A DNA stretch of 64,000 nt, taken from assembly GCA_032622095.1 (NCBI GenBank), contig CP136068.1, positions 49,098,443 through 49,162,442 on the forward strand. The letters are read 5' to 3'. The notes beneath the pieces were generated by a model. That model was not told where the DNA came from and did no database searches. It saw only the letters and a list, made by a program, of their open reading frames with translations. The first letter of the stretch is position 1. Each line of letters starts with the position of its first letter. The position numbers and the translations under genes are program-made. Source of the stretch: Siphonodentalium dalli. Taxonomy: Eukaryota; Mollusca; Scaphopoda; Gadilida; Siphonodentaliidae. Of the stretch, positions 13,024 to 38,718 are shown one piece after another.

Positions 13024-14599
13024 ATAATTTAATATATTGTTTACATACATTTTATGATGGCATGACAAATCAAAAGTCTCTGAAAAATAAGGCTTTGTTT
13101 ACTTATAAATCTTGTTGCTTTGACATTTAATGGACCTCTGATATACACATGTTTGATATCATCATGCTTGGGAAAGGCTACCCTCTATGATCATATACAC
13201 AAAGTGTCCATTTAACCTAATCCGAAGACATACAAGAGTAACCAGATGGGACTCTGTCCAGAACATCATCAACACAACCGAATTAACAAGCTGTTGTGGA
13301 CCGAGAAGATTAGGTCTACTGAAAACAAACCCCTGGTGTGAGAACCAATTCTTCCAATTTTCCTTATTGTAGCTCTTTCCCATCTTGCAAATCTAAAAAT
13401 ATTGCCAAAGTGGTGTGGTGTGGTGGTGTGTTCATAGTTACACTTAATGGACTACAGCAACATACATGTATATTTTTAACTCCTTTTAAAGACATTTGTA
13501 TTAGTAGGCCCTTTCCCCTGGCCCAAAATTTTCATCACACTCCTAAGTGTACTATACCCAATGTCCCAAATCGCATATTAATAGCCACACCACCCATGTA
13601 CCACAGTATCTTCCACTGATTAAAACCAACACTACAACCAGTTCCAACAGTGAAAGACATTTTTATACACCAGATAATGCTAACCACTTGTGAACTATTT
13701 TGCAGAATTTTAATTAATTCTCTTCAAGGATAAACACATTGGCAATTATTGCCTTTTACTGTTTATTCTGAAATATATTGAAGTGGACATCACTAAAAGC
13801 CACATGATTGATTATGTCTGGTTATGTCACAATTATGTTGAGTTGTCAAATAGCATGTGTTCCTATTCAGATTAATACTACCAGTATTTAATATGTAGAC
13901 CTATGTTAGCCAGTGAAAGTTCATTAGGAATATCTCATGAATTTAGTGTTGTATAGAAGAACATTTAAATTTCCTTTGTTGTTGGTGGGGTATGAAAACT
14001 TCTCAATTGCTTATTTTACCTGCAGATTTAACATGACATTTTCATCGCAGAACTTCTGTATACGATATAAATTTTATGCAGTGTCAATAAAAATATTAAC
14101 TTAACCATTCAATTTTTTAAACATAAAAGCACAATTGCAATTCTTGACTTTAATAGTTTATATATTTCCTTTTTTTTTATTCTTTTTTTTTTTTATTAGA
14201 AAATAATTATAATCTGAACAATATAATAATCACAACGAACGTACCAGTTTGGCTTACACTCAAATTTTATATACTTACTAGCGGATGTACCCGGCGTCTA
14301 AAATTCTAAAAAATAATTTAAGAAATTCTGTGTATCGGGCAGATACATGTATATACCCTTGTCAGATGCCACTATTGGAGGATCCTGAAAAGCCATGTTC
14401 TACAGAGTGTGTTTTCTATTATCTCAGAAGAAACTATATTTGACTGCACACTGTGACTAGCTCACTATATGAATGCCCTCATTCCCGTTCCCATATAATT
14501 ATGACAGTTGAGAAGATATAATTGTTCAAGGGACTTAATTCGTCACCATTTGTCGAGGTTGTGAAATTCACAAACACCAAAAACTCCTTGTAACGAATT

Positions 14600-16500
14600 A
14601 TGGAGATGACTATATATAACTATAACTATTGGCGACTAAATCCTGATCCAGATGACTCCAAATGTGGTGTCTTTAACCCACATGATTTGATTCCTCATAT
14701 CATTGGAGAGGAATGTGTATGAATTTGGGGAAATTAGTGACAACATATTGTATCCGCTTTTGTGCCCCTCCCCTCCCCATTCATGACTCTAAACTTTTAC
14801 CACTTTTGACACAGTTAAACCACATCCATTAGACTCCTGATATCATAGAGATGATCATATATAAGTTTGGTGGTAATTCTAATGTATCAAATTTAGTGCC
14901 CCCCCCCCATCTCTTACCCAAACGGCACCAATATGGCTTCTTTAAATCACACAATTAGATTCCTTCTGTCATGGAGAAGAATATATCAATTTGGTGGAAA
15001 TCATCACTACAAAAAGGTTGTTTTAATAAATTGTGGTGCCCCTCTGTGCACCCCTGACTCGAATGGTGGAGATGATTATGTTTATTAAAGTTCAGTGGAA
15101 ATCGGCGATAAAAATATATCATCATTTTTGCTCCCCATTTTTCTGCGCCTGACACCAACATTATTTTAGATAATATCAACCCACACCAGCTGCCCGCACC
15201 ATTATTTTCCTCCTAAAAATTTACCGTTGTTAGACCCATTTGGTTATATAAAACACAGACAAACATATGCAAATATTTGCCCTAAATGTGGCTTTTTTAA
15301 CCCCCACAATTTGATTCCTCATATCATTCGAGAAGAACTTGCATGAATTTGGTCGATATTGATGCTAAACATATTTTAATCGGTTTGGTGTTCCTCCTCC
15401 CCTCCTTACTCAAGTGGCAACAGTTTTGACATCTTTAAACCACAAAATTAGACTTATTATTAAGATGAATATATATAAAATTGGTGTAAATCAGCGTCTG
15501 AACAAATTTGTATCATCTCTCACCCAAACGTCACCAATTTGGCATCTTTATATCACACGATTAGATTCCTTGTAACAGGGAGATGAATGTGTATCAATTT
15601 GATGGAAATCGACACTAAAAATATTTTTTATCAATTTTGGTGTCCCTCTTCCCCTCCATGCACCCCTGACTCGAACAGCCCCACTTTTGACATCATTAAA
15701 CCACACAATTAGGCTCCTGATGTCATGGAGATGATTATGTATAAGTTTGTTAGTAATCAGCAACTAAACAAATTCTTATCAAATTTAGTGCCCCCTCATC
15801 TCTCACCCAAACGGCACCAATTTGGCATCCTTATATCACACGATTAGATTCCTTGTAACATGGAGATGAATGTGTATCAATTTGGTGGAAATCTGCACTA
15901 AAAATCATTTTATCAATTTTGATGTCCCTCTCCCCCCCCCTGACTCGGAACGGCGCGACTTTTTACATCTTTAAACCACATCATTGGATTCCTCATATCA
16001 TGGATATGATATTTATGTATAAGTCCCTCCCCCTTTTCTTGTGTGTCGAATGACACCACTTTTGACAGCTATTTGATGGTAATCGGCGACTAAACAAATT
16101 CTTATCAAATTTAGCCCCCACCCCATCGTTCATCCAAATGGCACCAATCACACAATTAGATTACTTGTAACATGGAGAAGAATGGGTATCAATTCAGATC
16201 AATTTGGTGGAAATCAGCGCTAAAGATATTTTTATCAATTTTGTTGCCTCTCTCCCCTTTTGTGCCCCCTGACTCGAACGGCGCCACTTTTAACATCTTT
16301 AAACCACATCGTTGGATTCCTCATATCATGGATATGAATATGTATAAGTTTGGTGGAAATTGGCGACAAAAACATTTACTGCCCCTCCCCCTTTTCTTTC
16401 CCTGACAACAACAGCTTCACTTTAGAAAATTCTAACCTGTACCTTTATTTTCCTCATAAAAGGTTACCCCTGTTAGACCCCTTTGGTGCCATCTGGATGG
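14600..16500. repeat. diverged ~140-bp tandem array, copy in unit A
   Basis: About a dozen diverged units recur every ~140 bp. Each is built around ATGGAGATGAATGTGTATCA..TTTGGTGGAAATC, followed by a C-rich stretch (GTGCCCCTC..CCCC) and ..CACCACTTTTGACATC. Poly-C runs of 8 to 10 bases occur in several units. Minus-strand frames of 70-90 codons here repeat the same residues unit after unit and reflect the repeat, not a gene. The sister array is at 22090-23720. Confidence 0.75.
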
Positions 16501-16902
16501 TCCCCTGTCACTTTCTATAGAACACAGACAGACACTGAGCAAGACAAATATAGATATACTGTACTAGTAGATACATACCGGTATGTATAGTGGAACAGAC
16601 TACTTTCATGCTCATCATATTTATTTGAAACAAGTGAAATTTGACTTTTGGTTCTGATACATTGTTTTACAGATTACAACTGAAAGATAGAGATTCATAA
16701 TTATGTTAGACTGAGTTTAGCTATTATCATACCCATATTTAAGATGATAGAAGTATGAGTCAATGGGGAGCTTTAAAATCTTTGAGCATATATATTAAAG
16801 TGCGTCCAACATGGACAATGATATCTTTCAATGACTGTAATGTGAAATGCAGTATTATGACCAAGGACAATGTGTAAGCGTGTACTGTAGGTACAGCAGT
16901 TA

Positions 16903-17114
16903 CAGTAATGCCCTAAGTAATCACTCCTTAACTACAGCAGAATTATGGGTAGCTTTTCAGGATTTAGTCGGAAATATGGCTTGTTGCCATTCATTGGAAA
17001 TCTCGCCCTGAGAGCTTTCCGATGAATGGCAACAAGCCATATTTCCGACTAAATCCTGAAAAGTTACCCATAATTCTACTGTGGTTAAGGAGTCGATTAC
17101 TTAGGGCATTACTG
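16903..17114. mobile_element. palindromic TA-type MITE (family P), copy 1
   Basis: The element is a 212-bp near-perfect palindrome. It begins CAGTAATGCCCTAAGTAATC and ends CATTACTG, with TA before it and CA (mutated TA) after it. The arms are about 100 bp and meet at a short centre near 17008. It is absent from the equivalent place in the sister unit. TA targeting suggests a Tc1/mariner-type helper. Confidence 0.9.
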
Positions 17115-17550
17115 CAGCTAGCCATCTTTTGCCTGACTGTTGGCTGCTGATACCACCTCTGGCGCATATTAGCATATTAAAGCTTGGACTGTGAAACTTA
17201 TTGACTGTAATGTGAAATGCAGTGTAACAATGTGCAGCATGTTAGGTATAAAGTAGAGTATAGCGATTGGCTGTTAATTGGCTGATCTGTCATTGGGTAG
17301 ATAGCTGCTGTGGGGTTCACTTATTCACATTGGTGTCAGAGGTAGCAGACTGAGCGGATATTTTACTGAATGCAGTTGTCAATTATCAGTATCACTTATG
17401 GAATTAAAGGCAGTGATGACTTTTATTTTCTTTCTGTTTTTTTATTTGGAATTTCTGCATCAGTAGGATTATAAACTGGGCACAAACTTGAATTTGTCTT
17501 GAAGACAGTGACTTTCTATGGAATTTATGTTGTGAGGATTGTTATTCCAA

Positions 17551-17732
17551 ATGTCTGATCAGCAGAATATTAACTTGGCACCAGCCACCGTGACCTACTC
17601 AGATGAGTTGATGGACATGCACGCGGATGATTTACAAAATTGTTTCTTTTCTGTGAATGGAAACATAGTTTGTTCCTCCACAGATGACAAGGATGATCAT
17701 CCACTCGTCTATAACTATTCAGATACATCTAG
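17551..17732 (+). CDS. tandemly repeated 5' coding exon, copy 1
   Basis: This is the first of four copies of a short exon that starts with ATG and runs 60 codons plus two bases to the donor ATCTAG|GTAAGT. An in-frame TGA at 17533 lies just upstream, which supports 17551 as the start. The product begins MSDQQNINLAPATVTYSDEL, is acidic (a DDKDD cluster near residue 45) and rich in Ser/Thr/Asn. It has no signal peptide, membrane segment or recognised domain. The leader ..TTTATGTTGTGAGG..TTATTCCAA is shared with the other copies. The reading frame closes only at the TAA inside the donor, as expected for an exon. I do not recognise the family. Downstream exons were not found, so it may be an alternative first exon or an orphaned duplicate. 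Confidence 0.7.
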
Positions 17733-18017
17733 GTAAGTCAGGGATGGAAACGCATGCTTTTTGATCGGTGTGTTTTTTACCTTAAAAAATATTTGCGGGG
17801 GTCAGGGGGCTCTATTGAAATCACTTGTTCGTCCCTGATGATTCTGAATGAAATTTTCAGTGATAGTTAATGAAATAAAAATAATAATGGTTTGGGATGC
17901 CCGTCTGGTTTGAATATGGGTGTGGTCTAGACATTTTTTGTCGGATGAACTTTATGTACTTATAATTTGCTGATTATTTTGGTTTCCAGATTATAGATTG
18001 ATTTCTTGTGTGTCCAA
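17733..18017 (+). other. start of intron after exon copy 1
   Basis: The sequence begins GTAAGTCAGGGATGG and matches the regions after the other exon copies. It contains a single ancestral copy of the 34-bp motif (17895-17928, GGATGCCCGTCTGGTTTGAA) that was amplified after exon copy 4. Confidence 0.7.
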
Positions 18018-19339
18018 CAGGGGGGAGTCTGGAAAAAAATTGCACATATAGGGCCCAAAAAGTTTTTTTCCGACCCCAAGGGACCCACCACCCCATTTGT
18101 GCAAAAAAAACCAAACAAATTTCCTCAAAAAATTTGGGGACCCAACCCCCCTTTCTCATGTTTTTATCAAAATTTCAGATTTTTTTTTTAGCCGTTCTTC
18201 AATAACTGTGTTAACTGCCTTTCAATCCCATTCCACTATAATTTTTTTGGTGCAAACTCTTGCTGTGTACCATTAAGACTCAAGCAATAACATGCTTAAT
18301 TGGTAAACACAGATCATAAAAACGAAAAATAAACTGTATTTCCAGGTATTTCCTGGTGTTTTCAGTATCTAACAACAATAATAAAGCATTGTGTAGGTAC
18401 ACTATATGTCACAAATCGCCCTAGACCCCATTATAGCCTTAATATATCGAGTGTGTTGTGTCTGACAGAGAACACTGGCCAGTGTAAATAGTGGTAAACG
18501 GGTCAGGGGTTCCACAATTATTTGTGCATGACCAAAGAACTCTTTAGTCTTATCCACCGGGGTGGGGTGGGGAGGGAATTGTTTTTGGTTAGGTATACAC
18601 CTAGATATATGGTTATTATATCCCCCCGATATTAGTCGGCGGGTATGTAGTTGACGTATCGAGCCGTCCGTGCGTCATTCCGTACAAACATTTTGCATTA
18701 TAACTCAAGAGTCGGTTGTCATATTTTGATGCCCTATGCCATGGTGACAGACCAGAAATGGGGAACGAATATGCATAATATCACGGGTTGTGACCATCAA
18801 TGCCTACCAGATTTATGGGCCCAGTTCGACTTTATGAAATTCAGTCCGTACAAAGTTTTTGCAATATAAGTTAAGTGTCAGTTGTCGAATTTTGATGTGG
18901 TTTGGTATGGTGATAGACCAGAATGATAGGAGAAGGATGTATGCACATATTACTTTATATCACAGGTTTCGCCTATCAATGCATACCAGAGTTACCGGCC
19001 TTGTTCCATCCGTAAACACGTTTTGCATTATTATAACTCAACCATGGGTTAAGTTTCCTGAACGCTATTACGGTGGTCCACTGTGAAGTGGGCCGGGATC
19101 CTGTGAAATCCAGAATGTTGCTAAATCTGAGGCTAAAGAGTCACTATAGCTGCATATATAGCCCTATACCAACAAGCATGGTACTAACATGCTTACAAAC
19201 AACATTACATGGTCAGTACTTGTAAATTGTTTGAAATAAAGCCATTTTGGAAAAAAATTACAAGCACGATTTTTTCGGCCTCTGGACCACCCACCCACCC
19301 CGGCCCTATATACGGAATTTTTTTGCAGATTCCCCCCTG
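18018..19339. mobile_element. 1.32-kb inverted-repeat element with 7-bp target duplication
   Basis: The left end is CAGGGGGGAGTCTGGAAAAA, and the right end is TTTTTGCAGATTCCCCCCTG. The terminal inverted repeat is about 38 bp and ends at GGGCCCTATAT-type sequence. A perfect 7-bp duplication TGTCCAA flanks it (18011-18017 and 19340-19346). The unoccupied site is visible at 28739 (GTGTGTCCAAGC) in a sister unit. The interior (18600-19080) holds a dispersed repeat with GTCCGTGCGTCATTCCGTAC and ..TTTTGCATTATAACTCAA. No transposase was recognised. Confidence 0.8.
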
Positions 19340-19704
19340 TGTCCAAGCTAATATTTCAGCCATAGGTTATCAGATCTTGATGTAATTTGGTAAGGATGTT
19401 CAATACAATGACAGCTTTAATGTTTTGATGAAAACTTTTTGTCCATGATTTCCACCAAACTTTTGTGTAGGCTTCTCCATGATACGAGGACTCAGTGTTA
19501 AATGAAGTTACCAAAGTGACAGCTACCTCTATGATCATATACACAAAGTGTCCATTTAACCTAATCCGAATCCTTACAAGCAATATAACTTCCGCCCACG
19601 ATTCTGGGCATAAAGTCTGTTATAGAAGAGTAACTGGATGGGAATCGGTCCAGAACAGCATCAATCCCACTGAATTCACAAGCTGTTGTGAACCGAGAAG
19701 ACTA

Positions 19705-19917
19705 CAGTAATGCTCTAATTAATCGACCTCTTAACCAAAGCAGAATTATGGGTAACTTTTCAGGATTTAGTCGGAAATATGGCTTGTTGCCATTCATCGG
19801 AAAGCTCTCGGGGAGAGCTTTCCGATGAATGGCAACAAGCCATATTTCCGACTAAATCCTGAAAAGTTACCCATAATTCTGCTTTGGTTAAGAGGTCGAT
19901 TAATTAGAGCATTACTG
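19705..19917. mobile_element. palindromic TA-type MITE (family P), copy 2
   Basis: The element is 213 bp, with two 105-bp arms that match each other perfectly around a 3-base centre, flanked by TA (19703-19704 and 19918-19919). It carries private variants (GCTCTAATT and CTTAACCAAAGC) present in both arms. The corresponding site in unit A near 13320 has no insertion. Confidence 0.92.
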
Positions 19918-20599
19918 TATAACAAACCCCTGATATGAGAACCATTCGTTTAAATTTTCCTTATTGTTGCTCTTCCCCACCATGACTCTTGAAAATCTAA
20001 AGATATTGCCCAAGTGATATCGGTGTGTTCATACATGTAGTCTCACTTAATGGACAACAGCAACATATATTTTTGACTCCTCTTAAAGACGTGTTTGTAT
20101 TGGTAGGGTTTCCGCAAGAGGGACCCTTTCCACTGGCCCAAAATTTCATCCCACACATAAATGTACTATACCCAATGTCCCAAATGGCATATTAATAGCC
20201 ACACCACCCATGTACTGCAGTATCTCACTGATTAAAACCAATACTTTAACCAGCTCCTACAGTGAAAGATATTTTCTTGGCCTGCTAATGATAACCACTT
20301 GTGAACTATTTTGCAGAATTTTAAATAATTCTCTTCAAGGATAAACACATTGGCAATTATTGCCTTTTACTGTATAATCTGAAATATATCAAAGTTGACA
20401 TCACAAAATTTCTAAAAGCTACAAGATTGATTTATGTGTCTGGTTATGTTGCAATTTATGTTGTCAAATTATATGTGTTCCTATTCTGATTTATACTATT
20501 TAATATGTAGACCAGATGTTATAGCCAGTGAAAGTTCATTAGGAATATTTCAGAGTACATGTATAAACATGTTATCATGAATTTAGTGTTCTATAGCTA

Positions 20600-21281
20600 C
20601 AGGTCTCAGCTGCCCGGTGAGAACTGGTTCGCATTAGGTTTTGGACACAGTGCGCACTCGTCAATGTCACGGTTCATTTCAGATCGAGAAAATATGGCAT
20701 CACAGATATAAAGTGGCATTTTGCACAGACGAAAGTGAGATTAATCTATATTTGATGCTACGGTTATTTTTCAAATGACTCAATGCTATCGATTCAATAG
20801 TTTATTTGATGTTTTAGCTGAAAACTGTGCGCTTGTTGTCATATGTTAAAGACAGCGATCACTCAATGCATTTTCAATGGAAACTTGTCCGACTAATTAC
20901 ATTTAATACACACCAACCGCGTGTGTGTTTTTCGATTGTACGGCCAGTTTCCTATATCTCCTCACTCACAGACCACCGATCGTGGTTATATTTCACGTCT
21001 AAGTCACAAGAGAAGACTTTTGAAATGAGTCGAAAATGCTACGGTGCCCCTCTGATCTTATGTTATCATTTTTATTCGCATCCGATCAAATGCCCCAGTT
21101 CCGATCAAATGCCTTGCCATTTAACTGCAGATTTTGCAGCAGTAAACATATTCTTCGCAGGTATTTCTGCAATGTCCTGTCCATTTGTTGTGAAATTGCA
21201 AGCGTGCACCGTGACATTGACGAATGCGCACCGTGTCCAAAACTGAATGCGAACCAGTTCTCACGGGGCAGCTGAGACCCC
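20600..21281. mobile_element. 682-bp element with ~70-bp terminal inverted repeats, unit A' only
   Basis: The left end is CAGGTCTCAGCTGCCCGGTG, and the right end is its reverse complement (..GGGGCAGCTGAGACCCCG). Pairing extends about 70 bp through GAACTGGTTCGCATT and TCGTCAATGTCACGG. It interrupts a sequence that is continuous in unit A (13951-13970). A 139-codon frame inside (20827-21246) matches no family I know and overlaps the right inverted repeat. The target duplication is unclear. Confidence 0.75.
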
Positions 21282-22089
21282 GTGATAGCAGAACATTTAA
21301 ATTTCCTTTGTTGTTGGTGGCAGTATGAAAAATTCTCAATCGCTTATTTTACCTGCAGATTTAACTTGACATTTTTATCTTGTAATTTCTGTTTACATTA
21401 TCAATTTTATACACTGCCAATGAAAATAATAATGTAACCATTCAATTTGTTAAAAATAAACGCACAATTGCGATTCTTGAATCTTGACTTTAATAGTTTA
21501 TATACTAACCCGGCATCTGTTCTAAAATTCTAAAAAAAAATTAAAGAAATGCTATGTATCGGGCAGATATACCCTTCTCAGATGCCAGTATTGGAGGATC
21601 CTGAAAAGTCATGTGCTGCAGAGTGTGTTTTCTATTATCTCAGAAGATACTATATTTGACTGCACACTGTGACCACTATTTTTGAACAGGCTTTCTATAC
21701 ATTTCCATCTCTCTTGACATATTTTATCTTTTTTTTTGTGGAAAATATCTTGAATGGGACAGACTCACTTGTATTATAATACACAAGTCATTCTAACATG
21801 CCATCCTATGACGATTCAAGGTCCCTCATTCAAGAATATAATTATGTATCTCTTAAATAGAATGATAAATATACTTTTAATGCTTTCTTCTATGTATGTG
21901 TTTTTGCTAGCTCACTATATATCATTCCCGTTCCCATATAATTATGACAGTTGAGAAGATATAATTGTTTAAGGGACTTAATTTGGTCACCATTTGTCGA
22001 GGTTGTGAAATTCACGAACGCCAAAAACTCCTATAATGAATTATGGAGATGACTTATATATATATAAATAATATATAACTATAACTATC

Positions 22090-23720
22090 GGCAACTAAAA
22101 TATTCTTATCAATGTTGGTGCCCCTCCTCTGTCCATCCCTGATCCAAACGGCACCAAATGTGGTGTCTTTAACGCACATGATTTGATTCCTCGTATCATT
22201 GGAGAAGAACGTGTATGAATTTGGTGGAAATTAGCGATAACATATTGTATTCACTTTTTTGCCCCTCCCCATTCATGACTCGAACGGCACCACTTTTGAC
22301 ATAGTTAAACCACGTCCATTAGACGTGATTATGTATGTTTGGTGGTAATCGGCAACTAAATTTGTATGAAATTTAGTGCCCCCCCCCCCCCATCTCTTAC
22401 CCAAACAGCACCAATATGGCTTCTTTAAATCACACAATTAGATTCCTTGTGTCATGGTGGAAATTGACAGTACAAAAACCAAAAAGATTGTTGGTGCCCC
22501 TCCATGCACCTCTGACTCGAACCGCGCCATATGATGGAGATGATTATGTTTATTAAAGTTTGGTGGAAATCGGCGAAAAACATATATCATTTTTGCTTCC
22601 CCACCCCATTTTTCTGCCGCTCACACCAACAGTGTTATTTTCGATAATATCAACCCACACCATTATTTTCCTCGTAAAAAAATTATCGCTGTTAGACCCA
22701 TATGGTGCCATCAAGATGGTCCTCGTGAAGTTATATAGAACACAGACATATGCAACCATAGGCACCATATGTGGCATTTTTAAGCCACACAATTTCATTC
22801 CTCGTATCATTCGAGAAGAATGTGTATGAATTTGGTCGAAATTGGCACTTAACTTATTTTAATCGGTTTTAGTGTTCCTCCTCCCCTTCCTGTCGCTTAC
22901 TCAAGTGGCGACAGATTTGACATCTTTAAACCACAAAATTGGACTCATTATGAAGATGAATATATATAAAATTGGTGGAAATCAGCGTCTGAAGAAATTT
23001 TGTATCAAATTTAGTGCCCCCCCCCCCATCTCTCACCCAAGTTGGCATATTTAAACCACATGATTAGATTTTTCATATCACAAAGAAGAATATGTATAAA
23101 TTGGGTTAAAATCAGCACTAAAAATATCTCTTATCAATTTTGGTGTCCCTCTCCCCCTCCTGCACCCCTTACTCTAACAGCCCCACTTTTGACATCATTT
23201 AACCACACAATTAGACTCCTGATATCATGGAGATGATTATGTATAAGTTTGTTGGTAATCATGCAGTGACTAAAAAATTCTTATCAAATTTAGTGCCCCC
23301 CCCCCCCTCATCTGTTACCCAAAAGGCACCAATTTGGCATCTTTATATCATACCTTTAGATTCCTTGTAACATGGAGAAGAAGGTATCAATTTGGTGGAA
23401 TTCTGTGCTAAAAATAGTTTTATCAATTTTGATGCCCCTCTCTCCTTCAGTACACCCCTGACTTGAATGATGCCACTTTTGGTGGTAATCGGTGGTAATC
23501 GGCAACGAAACAAATTCTTATCAAATCAATTTGGTGGAATTAAATCAGCGCTAAAAATATTTTTATAAATTATGGTGCCCCTCTCACCCATCGCACCACT
23601 GACTCGAATGGCGCCACTTTTGAAAGCTTTATACCACACCATTAGATTCCTCATATAATGGATATGATTATTTATAAGTTTGGTGGAAATTGGTGACCCC
23701 TTTGGTGCCATCTGGATGCC
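22090..23720. repeat. diverged ~140-bp tandem array, copy in unit A'
   Basis: This is the sister of the array at 14600-16500. It has the same unit core (..TTTGGTGGAAATCGGCG..GTGCCCC..) and poly-C runs near 22380, 23018 and 23296. Unit order is broadly kept, but several units are lost or rearranged. Confidence 0.75.
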
Positions 23721-23963
23721 CTGTGAATTTCTATAGAACACAGACAGACAGCAAGACAAATACAGATATAGATATAGTGGAACAGACTACTTTCATGCTC
23801 ATCATATTTATTTGAAACAAGTCATTAGACTTTTGGCTCGGATACATTGTTATGCAGATTACAACTAAAAGTGAGAGATTCATAATTATGTTAGACTGAG
23901 TTAGCTATAATCATCATGCTCATATTTAAGATGATAGAAGTATGAGTCAATGAGGTTGTTTAA

Positions 23964-24202
23964 CCCTTTGAGTGCCAGGGGCCGATCTCATCGGCCCTAA
24001 ACCTACAAAATAAGTCTGTTCAAGAATATAAGAATATATTAATAAAATTGTAAAAAAAAAAATTAAAAAAACATAAAAAATTGTTAAGCCAATGCATTCT
24101 CTTATATATGCGAGGCGACCTATGGTCGACTCGCATATATAAGAGAATGCATTGGCACAGGGTATATGGGTTGATACAAAAATCGACCTGGCACTCAAAG
24201 GG
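23964..24202. mobile_element. TTAA-flanked MITE with hairpin module (family T), copy 1
   Basis: The termini are CCCTTTGAGTGCCAGGGGCC and ..CCTGGCACTCAAAGGG, flanked by TTAA (23960-23963 and 24203-24206). A 69-bp hairpin lies at 24088-24156. The unoccupied site is seen in unit A near 16760 (AGCTTTAAAATC). TTAA target choice and CCC ends are typical of piggyBac-type elements. No transposase is present. Confidence 0.9.
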
Positions 24203-24719
24203 TTAAAGTTTATAAGCATATTAAAGCACGGCCAACATGGACAATGAGATCTCTTAATGATTGTAATGTGAAATGCAGTATTTAATTATGACCGATGACA
24301 ATGTGTGGCATGTTAGGCAGTCTTTGTAAACATACACTTTGTAATCATACTCTTTGTGATCATATGAAGGTGGGAATAAAGTTTTAGGTACAGTTAAGTA
24401 TAGCTGTTAGGTATATCTGCCTGGGCACTTGCATCATCATTGTATGGGGAAGACGACTGCTGACAGTGGGTTGACTAAATCGATTAGTGGTGTCGAGGTA
24501 GCAGTCAGAGTGGATATTTCACTGAATGCAGTTGTTAATAGTATCACTTTATGTTGAGTTAAATGCAGTAATAACTTTTATTTTCTTTCTGTTTTTATAT
24601 TCGGATTTTCTACATCAGTAGGACTGTAGAATTATAAGCTGGGCACAGACTAAACTTAAATTTGTCATGAAGACAGTGACTTTCTAAGGAGTTTATGTTG
24701 TGAGAGATTTTAATTCCAA

Positions 24720-24895
24720 ATGTCTGGTCAACAGGAGATTAGCTTGGCACCAGCCACCGTGACCTACTCGGATGAGTTCATGGACATACATGTACACGTG
24801 GATGATTTACAAAATTCTTTCTTTTCTGTGAATGGAAACATAGTTTGTTCCTCCACAGATCATCCAATTGTCTACAACTTTTCGGATACATCTAG
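24720..24895 (+). CDS. tandemly repeated 5' coding exon, copy 2
   Basis: The exon has 58 codons plus two bases, starts ATGTCTGGTCAACAG and ends at the same ATCTAG|GTAAG donor. Compared with the other copies it carries a 6-bp insertion (extra His-Val near residue 25) and a 12-bp deletion that removes the acidic Asp-Asp-Gln-Asp segment. Both keep the frame. The product begins MSGQQEISLAPATVTYSDEF and ends VYNFSDTS at the splice. Frame-preserving changes in an exon surrounded by indel-rich intron suggest selection on the protein. The family was not recognised. Confidence 0.68.
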
Positions 24896-25910
24896 GTAAG
24901 TTAGGGATGGAAAAAACTGCTTTTTGATTGGGTGTTTTTTAACTTGAAAAAATATTTGTGGGGGGTCAGCGGGGACTATTGAAATCACTTGTGTGCATTT
25001 GTCCATCCCAGATTATTTCTGAAGGAGATTTTCAGTGATAGTTAATGAAATAAAAATAATATTGGTTTGGGATGCCAGTCAGGTTTGATTATGGGTGCGG
25101 TCTGGACTTTTTTTGTCGGATGAACTTTGTGTACTTATAATTTGCTGATTATTTTGGTTTTCAGATTATAGATTGATTTCTTGTGCGTCGAAGCTAATAT
25201 ATCAGCCATAGGTTATCAGATCTCGATGTAACTTGGTAAGGATGTTCAACATAATGACAGCTTTAATGTTTAGATTTGTTGATGCTCATTTAATACAATG
25301 AAGGAAATAATGGAGTAGTTTTAAAGTTCAAAAGTCAGAGCCCAGGGATGGGTGGAAATTGGAGGGGCACCAAAATTGATGAAGGTATGGGGGGGGACCA
25401 GAATTGATGAACATGTTTTTAAGTTTCATAAGTCAAGAGTCAGCAGGGATTTGGAGAAATGGGAGGGGCACCAACTTTGATGAAAACTTTTTGTCCATGA
25501 TTTCCACCAAACTTTTGTGTAGGCTTCTCCATGATACGAGGACTCAGTGTTAAATGAAGTTACCAAAGTGACAGCATCGTAATCATAATTTCATAAGTCA
25601 GAGACAGCATGATTGGAAAGATTGTGATGGACACCAATATTGATGAAAATATTTTGTCTACGATTTCCACTTTTTCTTAAACTTATATTGTCTGAATGCT
25701 AAAGTGACGACATTGGAGTCAGATGTACCAAAATTGATGATTTGTATTTATGATTTCCAGCAAAAGGCATCATTAGGGGAATATATAATATCGTGGTCTT
25801 AAGTTGCCATAATGACATTCTGTGGTTAGATCGGACCACCAAAATTAATGAAAATTGTTTTGTCGCTGATTTTCATGAAACTTGTACAGATATTTACCGT
25901 GTATTATAGT
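24896..25910 (+). other. intron/spacer after exon copy 2
   Basis: The sequence is homologous to the stretches after copies 1, 3 and 4. It includes one copy of the 34-bp motif at 25070-25103 and diverged short repeats of the type GGGGCACCAAAATTGATGAA. No gene was seen. Confidence 0.6.
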
Positions 25911-26307
25911 TAGGGCTGTAAAAATACACTTGGTCATGATACGATACAAATTGAAATACATGATCGATGATATGATACATAACACAATACACTAAATTAG
26001 TGTTTTCAAATAATTTACCGCCTGGTTTATCAGAACCGACATGTTAATAACTGGAGATAGAGCTCATTTTTAACTAAAGTCCAGTTTAATAGTTAGCTAC
26101 CGGTACATGTAGATGAGTGAAATATACGTAATAGACATGTAAACTTGATATAAAATTGCATGTTTAATATTTTGCTCTTTTACACATGCCTGCCTAAAGA
26201 AATTAATTGATTCTTTGTATCATGATACACATGTTGTGATACGACACATGTATTATTTGAAAGTGTATCACGATACATTAAATTCACAATGAAACATTAC
26301 AGCCCTA
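25911..26307. mobile_element. 397-bp hAT-type MITE, unit-specific
   Basis: The left end is TAGGGCTGTAAAAATACAC, and the right end is ..CATTACAGCCCTA. The flanks are GTATTATAGT and GTATTAGT, consistent with an 8-bp duplication that later gained two bases. The sister unit shows the unoccupied form near 30108 (CGTCTATTAGTGCC). The interior is rich in TGATACGATACA-type words. Confidence 0.75.
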
Positions 26308-27047
26308 GTATTAGTGCCCTCTCAGTCAGGGTTGGGGTTCTTGGGGGAACAAAAAACTTGCTAAAATAAAAATAATAGAATATATATAAAAATAATAGTT
26401 TGTCACCAATTTCCATCACAATTGAATACAGTATATAGAAAGCTGCGTGATCCAGAATTCAATGATGTGGTTCAAGGTTGCCAAAGTTGTACTGTTGTAG
26501 ATATTGATACTTTATAATAGGGATATGATAGGGATATGTCTTGGGGTGCCCTGGCGATTCAAAATTGACAAAACTTAAAAGTCAATCATTGTTTTCCTCT
26601 AAAAAATTTGTTATGTAGACATCTCCATGCATGATACAAATAGGAATCTAATGTTGTGGTTTAGACTCACGAAAGTGATGCCGTCCAACTCAGGATGTGG
26701 CGGGGTTCAGGTGGGTTCCAAAAAGTTAGGCATTCATGAAAATATAAGTGACTATCATTCTCCCCTAAACTCGCCCACCCTGCCAGATATTTTTTTCAAT
26801 ACTTTTCCTTTTTTTGTGTGGATAAATTTACAAGTGATTTTAATGCAATATCATGCAGCATATACCATACCATGAGTTCATACTGCACCACGAGTTCATA
26901 CTACTACAATCAGTATTTAAATGGCCAGTTCAATTCTCAAGCATGTAACATTGTTTGGCCGAGATTATCCTGTCTACTGATCTTTAGTTTATAGCAATAA
27001 TTCATATCTTCAAAATTTGAAGTTACACTGTTGTTGTATGGTTTTAA
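26308..27047. other. unit spacer, no gene
   Basis: The sequence is shared with the following unit (about 30108-30819) and in part with 34160-34300 in the last unit. No coding signal was seen. Confidence 0.5.
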
Positions 27048-27267
27048 CCCTTTGAGTGCCAGGTCCGATTTTTTTATTGACCCATATACCCTGTGCCAAT
27101 GCATTCTCTTATATATGCGAGTCGACCATAGGTCGCCTCGCATATATAAGAGAATGCATTGGCCTAACCCAAAAAACAAAACAAAAAATTCATTTTTTTA
27201 TTATTTTTAGGGCACTCTACAGACCATAAATTAGGGCCGATGAGATCGGCCCCTGGCACTGAAAGGG
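27048..27267. mobile_element. TTAA-flanked MITE with hairpin module (family T), copy 2
   Basis: The termini are CCCTTTGAGTGCCAGG and ..CCCCTGGCACTGAAAGGG, flanked by TTAA (27044-27047 and 27268-27271). The hairpin is at 27095-27163. The exon-less relic unit shows the empty site at about 35607 (GGCTTTAAAGACCAC), while here TTAAAGACCAC follows the insertion. Confidence 0.92.
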
Positions 27268-27362
27268 TTAAAGACCACAAATAAGAGAGTCAATAATTCC
27301 AAGGACAACAGTACTCAATGTGATATCAATGAGATAATGCTATAGTACTACACTGCTACCTA

Positions 27363-27479
27363 CAGTAATGCCCTAAGTAATCGACCCCTTAACCACAGCA
27401 GAATTATGGGTAACTAAATCCTGAAAAGTTACCCATAATTATGCTGTGGTTAAGGGGTCGATTACTTAGGGCATTACTG
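27363..27479. mobile_element. palindromic TA-type MITE (family P), copy 3, short form
   Basis: This 117-bp palindrome is flanked by TA. It keeps the outer ~57 bp of each arm and has lost the centre. The private variant GACCCCTTAACC is present in both arms. The empty site is visible in the next unit at about 31293 (CTGCCTATACTACTTC). Confidence 0.9.
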
Positions 27480-27481
27480 TA

Positions 27482-28057
27482 TACCACTGTACTTCTCCAA
27501 GCACATGATGGGACACAAATCATTACTCATTGAATGCAATGTCTGTAGTTATAATGTCTGTAGTTATAATTAGTGGGCTATCTGACATAAGCAAAACATG
27601 AACCAGGGGATCTCCCAGGTAGACATACTGTAATCATTAATTCACCACTTTGCCTGTTAATAAGTCAGGTTGGTCTCCATCTCATTGCCCATTTATAATA
27701 AGTCAGGTGTTCACAACAGTTTTATTCTCATTTATACTCAGTTTACTGTGTGGAGCAGAGTGACATCTTCACATGTTCAAGATCAAGCTCTAATTTAATT
27801 AAACTTTTGGTTAATTACTTTCTTTGTGTTTCTATGTTCAGAATTTCTGCATCAGTAGGATTATAAGCTCAGCACAGATTAAACATAAATTTGACTTGGA
27901 TGCAGTTACTTTTTATTGAGTTTATGTTGTGAGGGATTATTATTACAAATGTGTGGATCTGAACAGTAGGTTATAAGCTCACTGGGCACAGGCTGAACTT
28001 ACATTAGGAGACATTGACTTTCTAAGGAGTTTATGTTGTGAGGGATTTTTATTCCAA
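27482..28057 (+). promoter_or_regulatory. leader region upstream of exon copy 3, internally duplicated
   Basis: Two tandem versions of the leader occur: 27840-27950 (..GGATTATAAGCTC..TTTATGTTGTGAGGGATTATTATTACAAATG) and 27968-28057 (..GACATTGACTTTCTAAGGAG..TTTTTATTCCAAATG). Copy 4 has the same doubled arrangement, while copies 1 and 2 have one version. These are candidate 5' UTR and promoter sequences. No TATA box is obvious at a fixed distance. Confidence 0.4.
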
Positions 28058-28239
28058 ATGTCTGGTCAGCAGAATATTAGCTTGGCATCAGCCACCGTGA
28101 CCTACTCGGATGAGTTGATGGACATGCACGCGGATCATTTACAAAATTCTTTCTTTTCTGTGAATGGAAACAGAGTTTGTTCCTCCACAGATGACCAGGA
28201 CGATCATCCACTCGTCTACAACTTTTCAGATACATCTAG
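28058..28239 (+). CDS. tandemly repeated 5' coding exon, copy 3
   Basis: The exon has 60 codons plus two bases, from ATG to the donor ATCTAG|GTAAGT. The product begins MSGQQNISLASATVTYSDEL, has the central FFSVNGN..VCSST block common to all copies and the acidic DDQDD segment, and ends YNFSDTS before the splice. It differs from copies 1 and 4 at only a handful of residues (for example Ile to Arg after VNGN, and Asp to His in the HADHLQN stretch). It shares its start, phase and donor with the others. The function is unknown. Confidence 0.7.
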
Positions 28240-29489
28240 GTAAGTTAGGGATGATTTTTGATAGTGTGTTTTTTACCTTGAAAAAATATTTGCGGGCGTT
28301 AGGGGAGGGGACTATTGAAATCACTTGTGTCAATCTTAGTGTGCATTTGTTCGTCCCAGATGATTTCTGAATGAGATTTTCAGTGATAGTTAATGAAATA
28401 AAAATAATATTGGTTTGGGATGCTGGTCAGGTTTGAATATGGGTGCGGTCTGGACTTTTTTGTCGGATGGATTTTATCCCTAACTTTTTGGAGCCCACCT
28501 GAATAATCTGCTGAATTTTTTGTTTGTTTGAATATGGGTGCGGTCAGTACTTTTTTGTCTATGGATTATTCTTTTTGTCTATTGATTTCTTTTTTTTTTT
28601 TAAATATGGGTGTGGTCTGTACTTTTTTGTCGGATGGACAACTTTTTGGAGCCCACCTGAACCCCACCTGAATAATCTGCTGGATTATCTAATGGAGCCC
28701 CATTATTTTGGTTTCCAGATTATAGATTGATTTCTTGTGTGTCCAAGCTAATATTTCAGCCATAGGTTATCAGATCTCAATGGAATTTGGTAAGGATGTT
28801 CAACAAAATGACAGCTTTAATGTTTAGATTTGTAGACTCTCATTTAATACAATGAAGGAAATAATGGAGTGGTTTTAAAGTTCAAAAGTCAGAGAGCCCA
28901 GGGATGGGTGGAAATTGGAGCGGAACCAAAATTTATTAAGGTAGTCATTGGACGGGACCAGAATTGATGAACATCTTTTTAAGTTTCATAAGTCAAGAGT
29001 CATCAGGGATTTGGAGAAGTGGGAGGGGAACCAAAATTTATGAAAACTTTTTGTCCATGATTTCCACCAAACTTTTGTGTAGCCTTCTCCATGAAGTTAC
29101 CAAAGTGACAGCATCAGAATCAGGGAGGCGCCAAAATTCATGTCAGAACATGCTTCATAATTTCAAGTCAGAGTTAACATGAATGGGAAGAATTGGGACT
29201 GGCACCAATATTGATGTAAATGTTTTGTCCACAATTTCTACCTTTTCTTAAACTTATATTGTCTGATTGCTAAAGTGACGACATTGGAGTCAGGGGCACC
29301 AAAATTGATCATTTTGTTTGATTTCCAACAATAGGCATTTCCGCGATTCGGTCAATATATAATATCATGATCTTAAGTTGTAGTGATGACATATCTGTTT
29401 CAGGGATGGTAGATCAGGACAGGGGGATTCAGTGGTTAGATCGGTTCATCAAAATAAATGAAAATTGTTTTGTTGCTGATTTCCTTCTA
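28240..29489 (+). other. intron/spacer after exon copy 3
   Basis: The spacer starts with GTAAGTTAGGG. It holds one 34-bp motif copy at 28418-28451, plus two further partial copies (about 28528 and 28600) of AATATGGGTGYGGTC followed by ..ACTTTTTTGTC. It may be an early stage of the amplification seen after exon copy 4. No gene was seen; the 68-codon frame at 28524 is the repeat translated. Confidence 0.6.
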
Positions 29490-30055
29490 ACTCTATATAT
29501 ACTGTAACCACTGGCGATTCCCCATGTTGAACTGTCTAGGGGTCAGTAAGAATCCCCAGGGTCGGTGTTTCTCTGAGTTCTAAAGGACTAAAGGACCTCT
29601 GGAGTTTTCAGAGAAAGAACATGACCATTTAAAAGAAATACATGTACATGTACTTTATATCAGAATTAAAGCCAAGATACATGAACAATGTACACGCCAA
29701 GAGAAATTCCACAGCTAACAGTGATTTGGTTTTTGGGATTCACACCCTCAGCTTTAACTGTCAAGCTTGGAGCCAAAATGAGCTAAAAGTAGACTCCAGG
29801 ATGAATATAACAGACCTGGAGTCATGCTTCAGTTTAATGCACCAACAGTGGTGTTGTAAATGTCTGATGAAGATATATCTTGTCACATATGACAAGATTG
29901 AGTATTCTCTCCTGTGCAGTGTCACACTGTTTGGTAGCATGAAAAATGAGAGAAGGAACACGCAGTCTGAGTCACTTCAGATGAGATAAATCCATCCCTG
30001 TCACAATACTAAGAATCTAATGGTTAATAATAATTTATATTTGATCAAACATTCT
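29490..30055 (+). other. unit-specific insertion with a 115-codon open frame
   Basis: This block interrupts sequence that is continuous in the previous unit (compare ..GCTGATTTTCATGAAACTTG near 25866 with the split at 29479 / 30063). It contains a plus-strand frame at 29642-29989 with several Cys residues (QQWCCKCL) but no recognised domain. There are no clear terminal repeats. It could be a gene fragment, a retrocopied transcript piece or chance. Confidence 0.4.
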
Positions 30056-30819
30056 TGTCACTAATTTCCATGAAACTTGTGTACACATACATGTATATAT
30101 ACCGTCTATTAGTGCCCTCTCAGTCAGATTTGGGGTTCTTGGCTTCCTAAAATAAAAACAACTGTTTGTTACCAATTTCCATAAAAATTTAATTTCGTCT
30201 ACAGATATATTGTAGCTGCGTGATCAGGAATTTAATGGTGTGGTTCAAGGTTGTCACAGTTGTACCGTCGTAGTTATTGATAGTTAGGGATAGGTCATGG
30301 GGAGGCCCCTAAGACATCAAAATTGACAAAACTAGTAAGTCGTAATTGTTTTCCTCTAAAAAGTTTTGATTATGTAGACATCTCCATGCATGACACAAGT
30401 AGGAATCTAATTTGTGGTTTAGACTTTTGAAAGTGGAGCCGTCCAACTCAGGATATGGTGGGGATCTCAGGTTGGCTCCAAAAAGATTAAAGAAAATTTA
30501 AGTGATTATCATTCTCAGTGAGAATTTTTCACCTAAACTCACCCACTCTGCCAGATATTTAAAAAACAATTTTTTTAATACTTTTCGTTTTTTTTTATGG
30601 TTAAATTTACAAGTTATTTTTTTAACGCAGTATCATGCAGCATATACCATACCATGAGTTCATACTACTGCAATCAGTATGTAAATGCCCAGTTCAATTC
30701 TCAAGTACATGTAAACATGTGGCCAAGATTATCATGTCTACTGATCAATAGTTAGCAAAAATTCATATCTTCAAAATTTGAAGTTACACTGTTGTAACAG
30801 TGTTGTTGTATGGATTTAA

Positions 30820-31201
30820 CCCTTTCAGTGCCAGGTCCGATTTTTGTATCAACCCATATACCCTGTGCCAATGCATTCTCTTATATATGCGAGTCGACCA
30901 TAAAGGTCGCCTCACATATATAAAAGAATGCATTGGCCTAACAAATTTTCATCATTTGTTATTATTTTTTACAATTTTTTACAATTTTAATAATTTTTTC
31001 TTATATTCTTTAACAGACTTATTTTGTAGGTTTTTCATGGGCTTCAAATTTATTACTATGAATACTTGGTGATAGTTTTGAGTTATAACATGCCCCTAAG
31101 GTTTTATCCAGTTTTTAAATTCGCTATAGCATGCTTAAGCATACCACAAAATATGTTGTTTTTTTTTTTTTTTTAGGGCCGATTTTACAGACCGTAAAGG
31201 G
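30820..31201. mobile_element. TTAA-flanked MITE with hairpin module (family T), copy 3, long form
   Basis: The termini are CCCTTTCAGTGCCAGG and ..GACCGTAAAGGG, flanked by TTAA (30816-30819 and 31202-31205). The hairpin at 30867-30937 is the most diverged of the six, with a 2-base insertion in the loop and changes in one arm. The right half is longer than in other copies and includes a T16-type run near 31158. It occupies the same TTAA site as the element in the previous unit, so it probably predates that duplication step. Confidence 0.88.
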
Positions 31202-31205
31202 TTAA

Positions 31206-31801
31206 AGACCACAAATAAGAGAGTCAATAATTCCAATCACAACAGTACTCAATGTGAAATCAATGGGATAATGCTGTAGTACTACACTACTGCCTATACT
31301 ACTTCTCCGAGCACATGGTGGGACACAAATCATTACTCTGACATTGAATGCAAACGTCTGAGCAAAACAAGAACCAGGGGATCTCCCAGGTGGGACTCAA
31401 TCATTTATTCACCACTCTGTTTAATAATAAGTCAGGTGGGCAAGTATAATGCTGTGTAAACACCAGATTTATTCTCATTTATACTCAGTTTACCTTGCGG
31501 AGGCAGAGTGACATATTCACATATTCAGCCATCAAGCTCTAATTTAATTAAATTTTGGTCAACGACTTTGTTTTTCTATGTTCAGAATTTCTGCATCAGT
31601 AAGATTATAAGCGGAGTGCAGACTAAACTTAAATTTGTCTTGGATGCAGTTACTTTCTATTGAATTTATGTTGTGATGGATTTTTATTACAAATGTGTTG
31701 ATCTGAACAGTAGGATATAAGCTCACTGGGCACAGACTAAATTTGCATTAGGAGACAGTGACTTTCTAAGGAGTTTATGTTGTGAGAGATTTTTATTCCA
31801 A
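31206..31801 (+). promoter_or_regulatory. leader region upstream of exon copy 4
   Basis: The sequence is homologous to 27272-28057 without the TA-type MITE. It contains the doubled leader (about 31585-31700 and 31712-31801). It is a candidate 5' UTR and promoter. Confidence 0.4.
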
Positions 31802-31983
31802 ATGTCTGGTCAGCAGGATATTAACTTGGCATCAGCCGCCGTGACCTACTCGGATGAATTGATGGATATACACGTGGACGATTTAAAAAATTGTTTCTTT
31901 TCTGTGAATGGAAACATAGTTTGTTCCTCCACAGATGACCAGGACGATCATCCACTCGTCTATAACTTTTCAGATACATCTAG
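31802..31983 (+). CDS. tandemly repeated 5' coding exon, copy 4
   Basis: The exon has 60 codons plus two bases, with the same start, phase and ATCTAG|GTAAGT donor as the other copies. The product begins MSGQQDINLASAAVTYSDEL and keeps the FFSVNGN core, the VCSST block and the DDQDD acidic stretch. It is the last intact copy; the next unit (about 35.5-35.9 kb) retains leader-like sequence but no exon. The intron that follows carries the 51-unit minisatellite. The protein family was not recognised, and downstream exons were not found in the window. Confidence 0.7.
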
Positions 31984-32321
31984 GTAAGTTAGGGATGGAA
32001 ACACATGCTTTTTGATAGGGTGTTTTTTAACCCCCCCCCCATTTGGATCCCAGAATGCAACAGAATTCAAACTTTTACAATGGAAGGGGAAGAACTCTAT
32101 CTTTAATATATAGAGTTATTCCCACTTCATTGAAAATAATACTGTTTTTTACTGCAATCTAGATTACAAAACGCATTGGCAACTCAACAAAAACAACATG
32201 TCCTCAGTTTATTACACCGGATAAATTGATAATACAATGTTTTGGTATATAATATGGCATATATTTGATATAATGTAATCTGGGGGTTCGATTTAAATGA
32301 CATAAAAATAATATTGGTTTG
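31984..32321 (+). other. intron start with a unit-specific block
   Basis: After GTAAGTTAGGGATGG the sequence departs from the other units at a poly-C run (32031-32040). It returns to homology at about 32302 (CATAAAAATAATATTGGTTT). The ~260-bp block between is not found after the other exons. It contains an inverted pair, AACTCTATCTTTAATATATAGAGTT, at 32093. Confidence 0.55.
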
Positions 32322-34055
32322 GGATGCCGGTCAGGTTTGAATATGGGTGCGGTCTGGATGCCGGTCAGGTTTGAATATGGGTGCGGTCTGGATGCCGGTC
32401 AGGTTTGAATATGGGTGCGGTCTGGATGCCGGTCAGGTTTGAATATGGGTGCGGTTTGGATGCCGGTCAGGTTTGAATATGGGTGCGGTCTGGATGCCGG
32501 TCAGGTTTGAATATGGGTGCGGTTTGGATGCCGGTCAGGTTTGAATATGGGTGCGGTTTGGATGCCGGTCAGGTTTGAATATGGGTGCGGTCTGGATGCC
32601 GGTCAGGTTTGAATATGGGTGCGGTCTGGATGCCGGTCAGGTTTGAATATGGGTGCGGTTTGGATGCCGGTCAGGTTTGAATATGGGTGCGGTTTGGATG
32701 CCGGTCAGGTTTGAATATGGGTGCGGTCTGGATGCCGGTCAGGTTTGAATATGGGTGCGGTTTGGATGCCGGTCAGGTTTGAATATGGGTGCGGTCTGGA
32801 TGCCGGTCAGGTTTGAATATGGGTGCGGTTTGGATGCCGGTCAGGTTTGAATATGGGTGCGGTTTGGATGCCGGTCAGGTTTGAATATGGGTGCGGTCTG
32901 GATGCCGGTCAGGTTTGAATATGGGTGCGGTCTGGATGCCGGTCAGGTTTGAATATGGGTGCGGTCTGGATGCCGGTCAGGTTTGAATATGGGTGCGGTC
33001 TGGATGCCGGTCAGGTTTGAATATGGGTGCGGTCTGGATGCCGGTCAGGTTTGAATATGGGTGCGGTTTGGATGCCGGTCAGGTTTGAATATGGGTGCGG
33101 TCTGGATGCCGGTCAGGTTTGAATATGGGTGCGGTTTGGATGCCGGTCAGGTTTGAATATGGGTGCGGTTTGGATGCCGGTCAGGTTTGAATATGGGTGC
33201 GGTTTGGATGCCGGTCAGGTTTGAATATGGGTGCGGTCTGGATGCCGGTCAGGTTTGATTATGGGTGCGGTTTGGATGCCGGTCAGGTTTGAATATGGGT
33301 GCGGTCTGGATGCCGGTCAGGTTTGAATATGGGTGCGGTCTGGATGCCGGTCAGGTTTGAATATGGGTGCGGTCTGGATGCCGGTCAGGTTTGAATATGG
33401 GTGCGGTTTGGATGCCGGTCAGGTTTGAATATGGGTGCGGTCTGGATGCCGGTCAGGTTTGAATATGGGTGCGGTTTGGATGCCGGTCAGGTTTGAATAT
33501 GGGTGCGGTCTGGATGCCGGTCAGGTTTGAATATGGGTGCGGTTTGGATGCCGGTCAGGTTTGAATATGGGTGCGGTTTGGATGCCGGTCAGGTTTGAAT
33601 ATGGGTGCGGTTTGGATGCCGGTCAGGTTTGAATATGGGTGCGGTTTGGATGCCGGTCAGGTTTGAATATGGGTGCGGTCTGGATGCCGGTCAGGTTTGA
33701 ATATGGGTGCGGTTTGGATGCCGGTCAGGTTTGAATATGGGTGCGGTTTGGATGCCGGTCAGGTTTGAATATGGGTGCGGTTTGGATGCCGGTCAGGTTT
33801 GAATATGGGTGCGGTCTGGATGCCGGTCAGGTTTGAATATGGGTGCGGTTTGGATGCCGGTCAGGTTTGAATATGGGTGCGGTTTGGATGCCGGTCAGGT
33901 TTGAATATGGGTGCGGTTTGGATGCCGGTCAGGTTTGAATATGGGTGCGGTTTGGATGCCGGTCAGGTTTGATTATGGGTGCGGTCTGGATGCCGGTCAG
34001 GTTTGATTATGGGTGCGGTCTGGATGCCGGTCAGGTTTGAATATGGGTGCGGTTT
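32322..34055 (+). repeat. 34-bp minisatellite, 51 units in exact register
   Basis: The unit is GGATGCCGGTCAGGTTTGAA followed by TATGGGTGCGGTCT. The array is exactly 1734 bp, which is 51 x 34 with no insertion or deletion. I read variation at only two positions. Base 33 is C in 24 units (1-3, 5, 8, 9, 12, 14, 17-21, 23, 27, 29-31, 33, 35, 40, 44, 49, 50) and T in 27. Base 20 is T instead of A in units 28, 49 and 50. The unit length is not a multiple of three, and frames contain stops, so it is not coding. The sister introns carry single copies at 17895, 25070 and 28418, which shows the array arose by local amplification. Confidence 0.97.
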
Positions 34056-34394
34056 GGACATTTTTGTTGGATGAACTTAGTGTACTTATAATTTGCTGAT
34101 AATTTTTGGTTAGATTGATTTCTGTTGCGTCCAAATAATATATCAGCCATAGGTTATCAGATCAGGGCTTGGGGAGTCACCAGGGCACCAAAATTGACAA
34201 AACATAACAAGTCATTGTTTTCCTCTAAAAAGTACATGTACATACGTAGACATATGATACAGAGAGAGAGATAAGAAGGAATCAATGTTGTGGTTTAAAC
34301 TTGTGTGGGGCTGTCCGAGTCAGGTATGGAGCAGGGGTAAGGTTGTCACCAAAAAGGTAGGGATTCGGGAAATGGTATTTTTATATGCCTGTAC
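34056..34394 (+). other. spacer after the minisatellite
   Basis: The sequence returns to homology with the other units (TTTGTTGGATGAACTTAGTG, then ATATCAGCCATAGGTTATCA). It then jumps to a part that matches 26530-26670, implying a large deletion in this unit. Confidence 0.6.
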
Positions 34395-35524: not shown

Positions 35525-35930
35525 AAAACAGCCTGTCTACTCATCTATAAGAAAACAATCATATCTTTAAAATTTGAAGTTTCAAACACTATGGGTGTGT
35601 GGCTTTAAAGACCACTTGTGATACACAAACAAAACAAACAAGAGATCCAATAATTCAGAGGACAAAAGTACTGAATATATAAATGTCAATTGGGTATTAA
35701 ATATGTGCAGGAGTATCACCTCAATATCCCACTCAATTTAACACGGACAATAATTAAACACTGTCTGGAGTCTGATGGGTAAGCATGCTGTGTACCTCAA
35801 CAGGTAGTAAGTATACTGAGTTACTGTGGGGAGTGACATAATCATTCTCATATCAAGTTCAACTTGAACTTTTAGACTTGGATGCAGTGACTTTCTTTGA
35901 AGTTTTTGTTGTGATGGATCTTAAAAATAC
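35525..35930 (+). pseudogene. fifth unit relic: leader without the coding exon
   Basis: The sequence aligns with the region upstream of exon copies 3 and 4: GTCTACTCATC..ATATCTTTAAAATTTGAAG, ..CTTTAAAGACCAC, ..GTACTGAATAT, ..ACTGAGTTACTGTGGGGAG and GACTTGGATGCAGTGACTTTC..TTTTTGTTGTGATGG. Homology stops where the ATG would follow, and no exon is present. The unit also lacks the TTAA element and the TA element, so it preserves both empty sites. Confidence 0.75.
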
Positions 35931-37683: not shown

Positions 37684-37968
37684 CCCTTTCAGTGCCAGGG
37701 ACAGATCTCATCGGCCCTAATTTACGGTCTGTAAAATCGCCCCTAAAAAATAAAAAAATGAAGAAAAAAAAGTCTGTTAAAGAATATAAGAAAAAATGAT
37801 TAAAATTGTAAAAAATTGTAAAAAATAATAACAAATGATGAAAAATTATTAGGCCAATGCATTCTCTTATATATGCGAGGCGACCTATGGTCTACTCGCA
37901 TATATAAGAGAATGCATTGGCACAGGGTATATGGGTTGCTACAAAAATCGAACCTGGCACTGAAAGGG
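37684..37968. mobile_element. TTAA-flanked MITE with hairpin module (family T), copy 4
   Basis: The termini are CCCTTTCAGTGCCAGGG and ..CCTGGCACTGAAAGGG, flanked by TTAA (37680-37683 and 37969-37972). The hairpin is at 37853-37921. The right-hand TTAA is shared with the next element. Confidence 0.92.
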
Positions 37969-37972
37969 TTAA

Positions 37973-38716: not shown

Positions 38717-38718
38717 TA

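Follow-up and report, generated by a model that had tools for sequence, protein, structure and literature searches.

Four exon copies in a tandem array

The window analysed here is a stretch of 64,000 nucleotides (C8:49098443-49162442) from the genome of the scaphopod Siphonodentalium dalli (2.23 Gb, 9 contigs), and it contains a tandem array of four copies of one short exon, c1 to c4, all on the + strand. Copy c1 (w1) lies at 17551..17732 (182 nt, MSDQQNINLAPATVTYSDELMDMHADDLQNCFFSVNGNIVCSSTDDKDDHPLVYNYSDTS(R)), c2 at 24720..24895 (176 nt), c3 at 28058..28239 (182 nt) and c4 at 31802..31983 (182 nt). An earlier note on this DNA had described a common start codon, open frame, phase and splice donor, and these were confirmed at each of the four positions: every copy begins with ATG, stays open, ends in phase 2 and runs into the donor ATCTAG/GTAAGT, the slash marking the exon boundary (AG/GTAAGT in all four). 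One 6-nt and one 12-nt indel in c2 are both in frame. The peptides of c1, c2 and c3 are 85-86% identical to that of c4, and when the c1 peptide was searched against the window in six frames, it matched exactly c1 to c4, the next match having only E=0.39. Judged by their sequence, the four copies are real 5' coding exons, intact, in tandem and each behind a conserved promoter-like block. The reading favoured here, held at about even confidence, takes the array for four short genes clustered in tandem, or at the least for four gene starts; each would have its own promoter, and all are members of a small dispersed family.

That family extends well beyond the window. DNA and protein searches found at least 13 outside copies of the same subfamily (subfamily 1: five on C3, five on C4, two on C5 and one on C8, with the tandem partial copies on C3 counted together with their exon), for a total of at least 17 including c1 to c4. 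A deeper subfamily 2 occupies at least five loci (two on C7, one on C6 and two on C2). It first surfaced as a weak match on C7 (E=0.65); with the C7 peptide as query, genome-wide matches to subfamily-1 copies had E-values as low as 3e-6, and all window copies but one were matched, at E 8e-4 to 0.011.

Each window copy is preceded by a conserved block, presumed to be promoter and 5' leader, at 17454..17550 (c1, with TATAAA at -81), 24639..24719 (c2, with TATAAG at -87, immediately outside the 5' end of the block), 27958..28057 (c3) and 31702..31801 (c4), the last two with TATAAG at -86; all four blocks are on the + strand. A TATA-like box thus stands 81-87 bp 5' of the ATG in all four copies, and the chance level is given by the 3.8% of the window's 28-bp stretches that contain TATAA[ACG]. 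Across subfamily 1, such a box was found at -81 to -102 in 10 of the 15 copies with a start found, C3b and C3d having been left out of the scoring; C3c has CATAAG at -86, and C5a, C5b, C3a and C3e have no TATA-like box in that region. Three of four subfamily-2 copies have TATATA or TATAAT at -81 to -96. Most occurrences of the box go back to common descent and not to repeated origin. Over 43 columns, the 5' block is as conserved as the exon (identity 0.73-0.86 against outside copies). Of the subfamily-1 loci, only C4d and C8x lacked a match to it, and the c3 block has 17 matches in the genome, every one of them at a locus with an exon copy.

Splice donor and coding constraint

Homology between the window and the outside copies halts abruptly at the end of the exon. 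Forty-nine DNA matches between the two reach the last 60 exon bases (these are pairs, and hence not independent events), and not one extends past donor base +5: 31 end at +5, 4 at +3, 1 at +1 and 13 within the exon. A genuine 5' splice site would be expected to leave this pattern. Against the nine outside copies compared, identity averages 0.75-0.79 in the exon but 0.33-0.43 beyond base +8. The GTAAG is retained in 15 of 17 subfamily-1 copies, including 13 of the 14 that were aligned (C3e is without it); the donors of the three unaligned copies (C3a, C3b and C3d) were read by eye, that of C3b being GTACA.

The end of the exon also bears on the length of the product. Left unspliced, the window copies would read ...DTSR-stop because a TAA sits inside GTAAGT. 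In subfamily 2, of which four copies were read and the second C2 copy left out, a TAG closes the frame directly 5' of the GT in three (C6, C2a and the last C7a unit), and in C7b the frame continues to a later TAG. With a stop before or within the donor, a short product of about 55-61 residues is plausible, spliced or not. An AATAAA-type signal lies 141-157 nt past the exon end in c1 to c3; c4 has none. Local duplications copied a block in which the TATA-like box and a short leader precede some 60 codons of coding exon with a strong 5' splice site at its end. In the favoured reading of short genes, each copy would be transcribed from its own putative promoter, its product would be a short protein ending at or just past the exon end, and a downstream exon would then be mostly 3' untranslated region (UTR).

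The substitution pattern points to protein-level conservation across the family. Over a hand-picked, gap-free core of 26 codons, in a pair taken from the protein search, C7 and c4 show 7, 6 and 20 differences at codon positions 1, 2 and 3 (dN 0.33, dS saturated), and five other core comparisons have 13 to 18 third-position differences vs 5 to 8 elsewhere. Given the codon-position bias between C7 and c4, the exon evidently is real coding sequence, with a core motif conserved as protein across the family. Both indels in the exon, of 6 and 12 nt, have lengths divisible by three, and the introns carry indels of 1, 3, 10, 11 and 12 nt, bearing out the earlier statement that they differ by indels and insertions. 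Exon substitutions per window pair amount to 0.060-0.088. Divergence in exon vs intron is 0.088 vs 0.169 for c1-c2 and 0.060 vs 0.168 for c1-c3, the intron comparison covering c1 to c3 since the c4 intron is too short to count. When neutral evolution was simulated on a star tree with the intron indel rate, all four exons remained intact in 0.00025 of 4000 runs (1 run) at the intron substitution rate and in 0.001 of 4000 runs (4 runs) at the lower exon substitution rate. Among the window copies, dN/dS is 0.27-0.79.

Several observations weigh against the reading of short genes. Both the hand-picking of the core and the choice of pairs by protein search favour conserved residues. Between c2 and c3, the exon (0.071) is no more conserved than the intron (0.072). 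Within subfamily 1, dN/dS is not clearly below 1; its bootstrap interval excludes 1 in only one of the six window pairs, c2-c4 (0.09-0.93). Donors of the C7 copies are poor or lost (GTATAG, ATATAG), and since the tandem units of C7a are not all in frame, the frame with its ATG stays open over no more than 68 codons. No second coding exon was identified in the array where its second and third repeat units could be aligned. Lastly, ATG, frame or donor has been lost in 12 of the 13 outside copies. Only C4a keeps all three; C5a and C5b have TTG in place of ATG, C3e keeps its frame and has lost its donor, and nine (C8x, C4b-C4e and C3a-C3d) have stops or the wrong phase ahead of the donor. Decay is thus the usual fate in this family.

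Much of this would suit the main sober rival, which is that the copies are relics, the remaining heads of tandem family genes that have lost their other exons and are no longer expressed. Damage to nearly all outside copies, a downstream exon that was not found, dN/dS intervals that include 1 in five of the six window pairs and the equal divergence of exon and intron between c2 and c3 all speak for it, as does the c4 intron, which holds an insertion and a minisatellite. Set against it are the intactness of all four window copies, which neutral simulation reproduces in so few runs, and the two exon indels in multiples of three. We regard the relic reading as doubtful. The earlier note had also proposed the heads of a tandem gene family; that part of its proposal is favoured here in the form of short genes.

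Duplicated units and relatives elsewhere

The exons sit in larger duplicated units of the + strand, all with approximate edges: unit 1 at 13317..19523, comprising satellite, 5' block, exon and intron, with an insertion at about 18018-19337; unit 2 at 19913..27589; unit 3 at 27590..31360; and unit 4 at 31361..34372, its intron broken by an insertion and a minisatellite. Outside the exon, units 2 and 3 differ by frame-breaking indels where they align, and this DNA looks noncoding. The minisatellite of unit 4 (32316..34058, +) comprises 51 copies of a 34-bp repeat at 98% match and has a strong GC skew; it apparently expanded out of an intron stretch that c1 to c3 hold unexpanded. A relic at 35783..35922 (+) corresponds to the upstream part of a further copy, matching DNA 5' of the exon copies on C3, C4 and C5, and no exon copy follows it. 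Between units 1 and 2, 100 bp (19424-19523 and 25476-25575) are identical in flanking DNA that is only about 80-90% alike, which may reflect gene conversion or recent copying.

In a tree of 14 aligned copies, from which C3a, C3b and C3d were excluded for their tandem partial copies, the window copies form one clade with support 1.0. Within that clade the tree is near a star, with internal supports of 0.205 and 0.477. Most members of the family carry a single module of about 40 residues, YSDELxDIH...[WF]xS[LV]..G..VCSxTD, and eight tandem units of it lie at one C7 locus (C7:115983986-115985080), where a spacing of 126 or 139 bp shifts the frame between some units. Other partial duplications were seen: the first ~70 bp of the exon is tandemly repeated nine times, out of frame, at locus L006 (932-1550), with fewer repeats in C3a and C3d, and a 36-37 bp minisatellite at C2:179167201-179167800 has expanded from the exon end and a donor-like site.

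Repeats are common around the exons. One dispersed repeat occurs in the window in both orientations at 16901-17114, 19703-19920, 38717-38936 and 52988-53188 (80-92% match). A second, with a GCATTCTCTTATATATGCGAG core and likewise in both orientations, occurs at 24007-24208, 27043-27167, 30815-31033, 37765-37974 and 56872-57274, and also directly 3' of the exon at the C6 relative. Satellite-like arrays at 14642-16478, 22051-23697 and 42047-43038 have counterparts flanking the exon at several C4 relatives. If the exon itself were part of a transposable or satellite-linked repeat, it would not be a gene at all. The satellite-like DNA that the window (14642-16478 and 22051-23697) shares with the region upstream of C4a and C4b would fit, as would that at 42047-43038, which recurs downstream of C4a, C4b, C4d and C4e, and so would the tandem partial copies on C3 and C7. 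We consider this very improbable, however, since a high copy number was not seen (at least 17 subfamily-1 copies and at least five subfamily-2 loci in 2.23 Gb), homology halts at the donor on the 3' side, and conservation acts at the protein level. The earlier note had asked whether the peptides occur solely in repeats genome-wide; as far as tested, with at least 17 subfamily-1 copies, they do not.

The earlier statement that the protein segment matches nothing known holds within the databases searched: no significant match was found in Pfam-A, NCBIfam, PDB sequences, IMG/VR or GTDB, none of which is an animal proteome. Two of the four copies gave a Pfam match to Chordopox A35R (E about 0.0016-0.0017 over 28-29 residues, 18.8 bits vs a cut-off of 27), which was judged to be chance. 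Pattern searches returned 55 matches in IMG/VR and 19 in GTDB, and relatives were confirmed in neither. Rfam and transfer RNA (tRNA) scans found nothing, and the nonapeptide YSDELIDIH was absent from the literature searched.

The downstream gene and known exon arrays

The earlier note had also raised the possibility that the four copies are alternative first exons, with four promoters feeding one downstream gene. Its constant exons would then lie past noncoding-looking DNA, perhaps outside the window. Several features fit: phase, donor and strand are identical in all four copies, each has its conserved promoter-like block, the units show no second coding exon of their own, and long first introns are plausible in a genome of this size. 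The downstream sequence does not bear the proposal out. No constant exon common to all copies was found between the array and the window end by Pfam, PDB or acceptor scan. Pfam searches of the + strand read through from 13 to 64 kb gave no match at E<=0.1, the third frame of 28-34 kb excepted (the minus-strand scan was partial), and three frames of 34-49 kb gave none among PDB sequences. As a positive control, a 112-codon open stretch with a THAP domain at 62861-63199 (-), detected by Pfam at E=1.8e-5 when scanned alone, was recovered within a read-through of 4999 aa (E=0.0022, 19.2 bits, cut-off 23.9 bits); this stretch could be what is left of a transposase, or an exon of a gene. Downstream of the array, the acceptor scan gave at most 84 codons of open phase-2 frame behind an acceptor-like site, vs 137 in the opposite-strand control.

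Comparison with other loci led to the same result: among the window and the ~27 kb that follow one C5 and one C4 copy, no two have a second coding exon in common, leaving aside matches in repeated or noncoding-looking DNA. In the translated comparison, from which satellite stretches and matches with more than two stops were dropped, non-exon matches appeared at window 34.7, 35.9, 42.0 and 46.0 kb (the last at E=5e-5 to C5). The DNA at these places has further matches, within the window or at other loci, and they were rejected as second exons; dispersed-repeat matches were likewise set aside. The + strand of the ~27 kb downstream of the C5 copy gave one sub-threshold reverse transcriptase match (E=0.012). 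A candidate second exon near 25167-25250 (CAG/ATTATAG...G/GTAAGG, leading to ...TSRL-stop) is unproven, c4 lacking the acceptor CAG.

A shared downstream coding exon was not found, and one gene with alternative starts is therefore unproven. Diverged relatives on C2-C8, where a downstream gene would not be shared, also argue against it, as do the nearly identical peptides, with which such an array would add little variety at the N terminus. We consider alternative first exons of one gene unlikely. A variant of this reading, which seems distinctly improbable, holds that the ~40-residue module defines an undescribed family and that the window is an alternative-first-exon array for one distant gene. 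Such an array would supply that gene with short N termini that hardly differ from one another, and it would tune dose or timing, not sequence. The N termini may be binding motifs; their [WF]xx[LV] core presumably resembles an autophagy LC3-interacting region.

In vertebrate UGT1 and clustered protocadherin loci, tandem variable first exons are joined to constant exons. These are the comparison systems for first-exon arrays (PMC3325998, PMC1885805). UGT1 is described as a tandem series of first exons that are alike and share phase and strand, each behind a promoter (PMC3325998), and the window resembles both systems in its tandem first exons of the same phase and strand with a promoter-like block each. 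It is unlike them in three respects: a search as far as the window end gave no constant exons, the peptides hardly differ, and other chromosomes carry diverged relatives that have the same 5' block. If shared splicing were true, the window would hold a further UGT1-like first-exon array, with a new protein; without it, this would be an ordinary young gene cluster, and gene finders may miss so short a protein. In either case, a promoter-like block and first exon were duplicated here and have stayed intact, in contrast to the decay of 12 of 13 outside relatives, and the protein family to which they belong has no significant relatives in the databases searched.

Lineage-restricted tandem multigene families of small proteins are the general kind that the favoured cluster of short genes comes close to. 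The array is unlike such families in that the coding part of each copy stops at a splice donor, with no further exons found. It is like them in its local duplications, its dispersed and diverged paralogs, its many decayed copies and its weak constraint beyond a short core.

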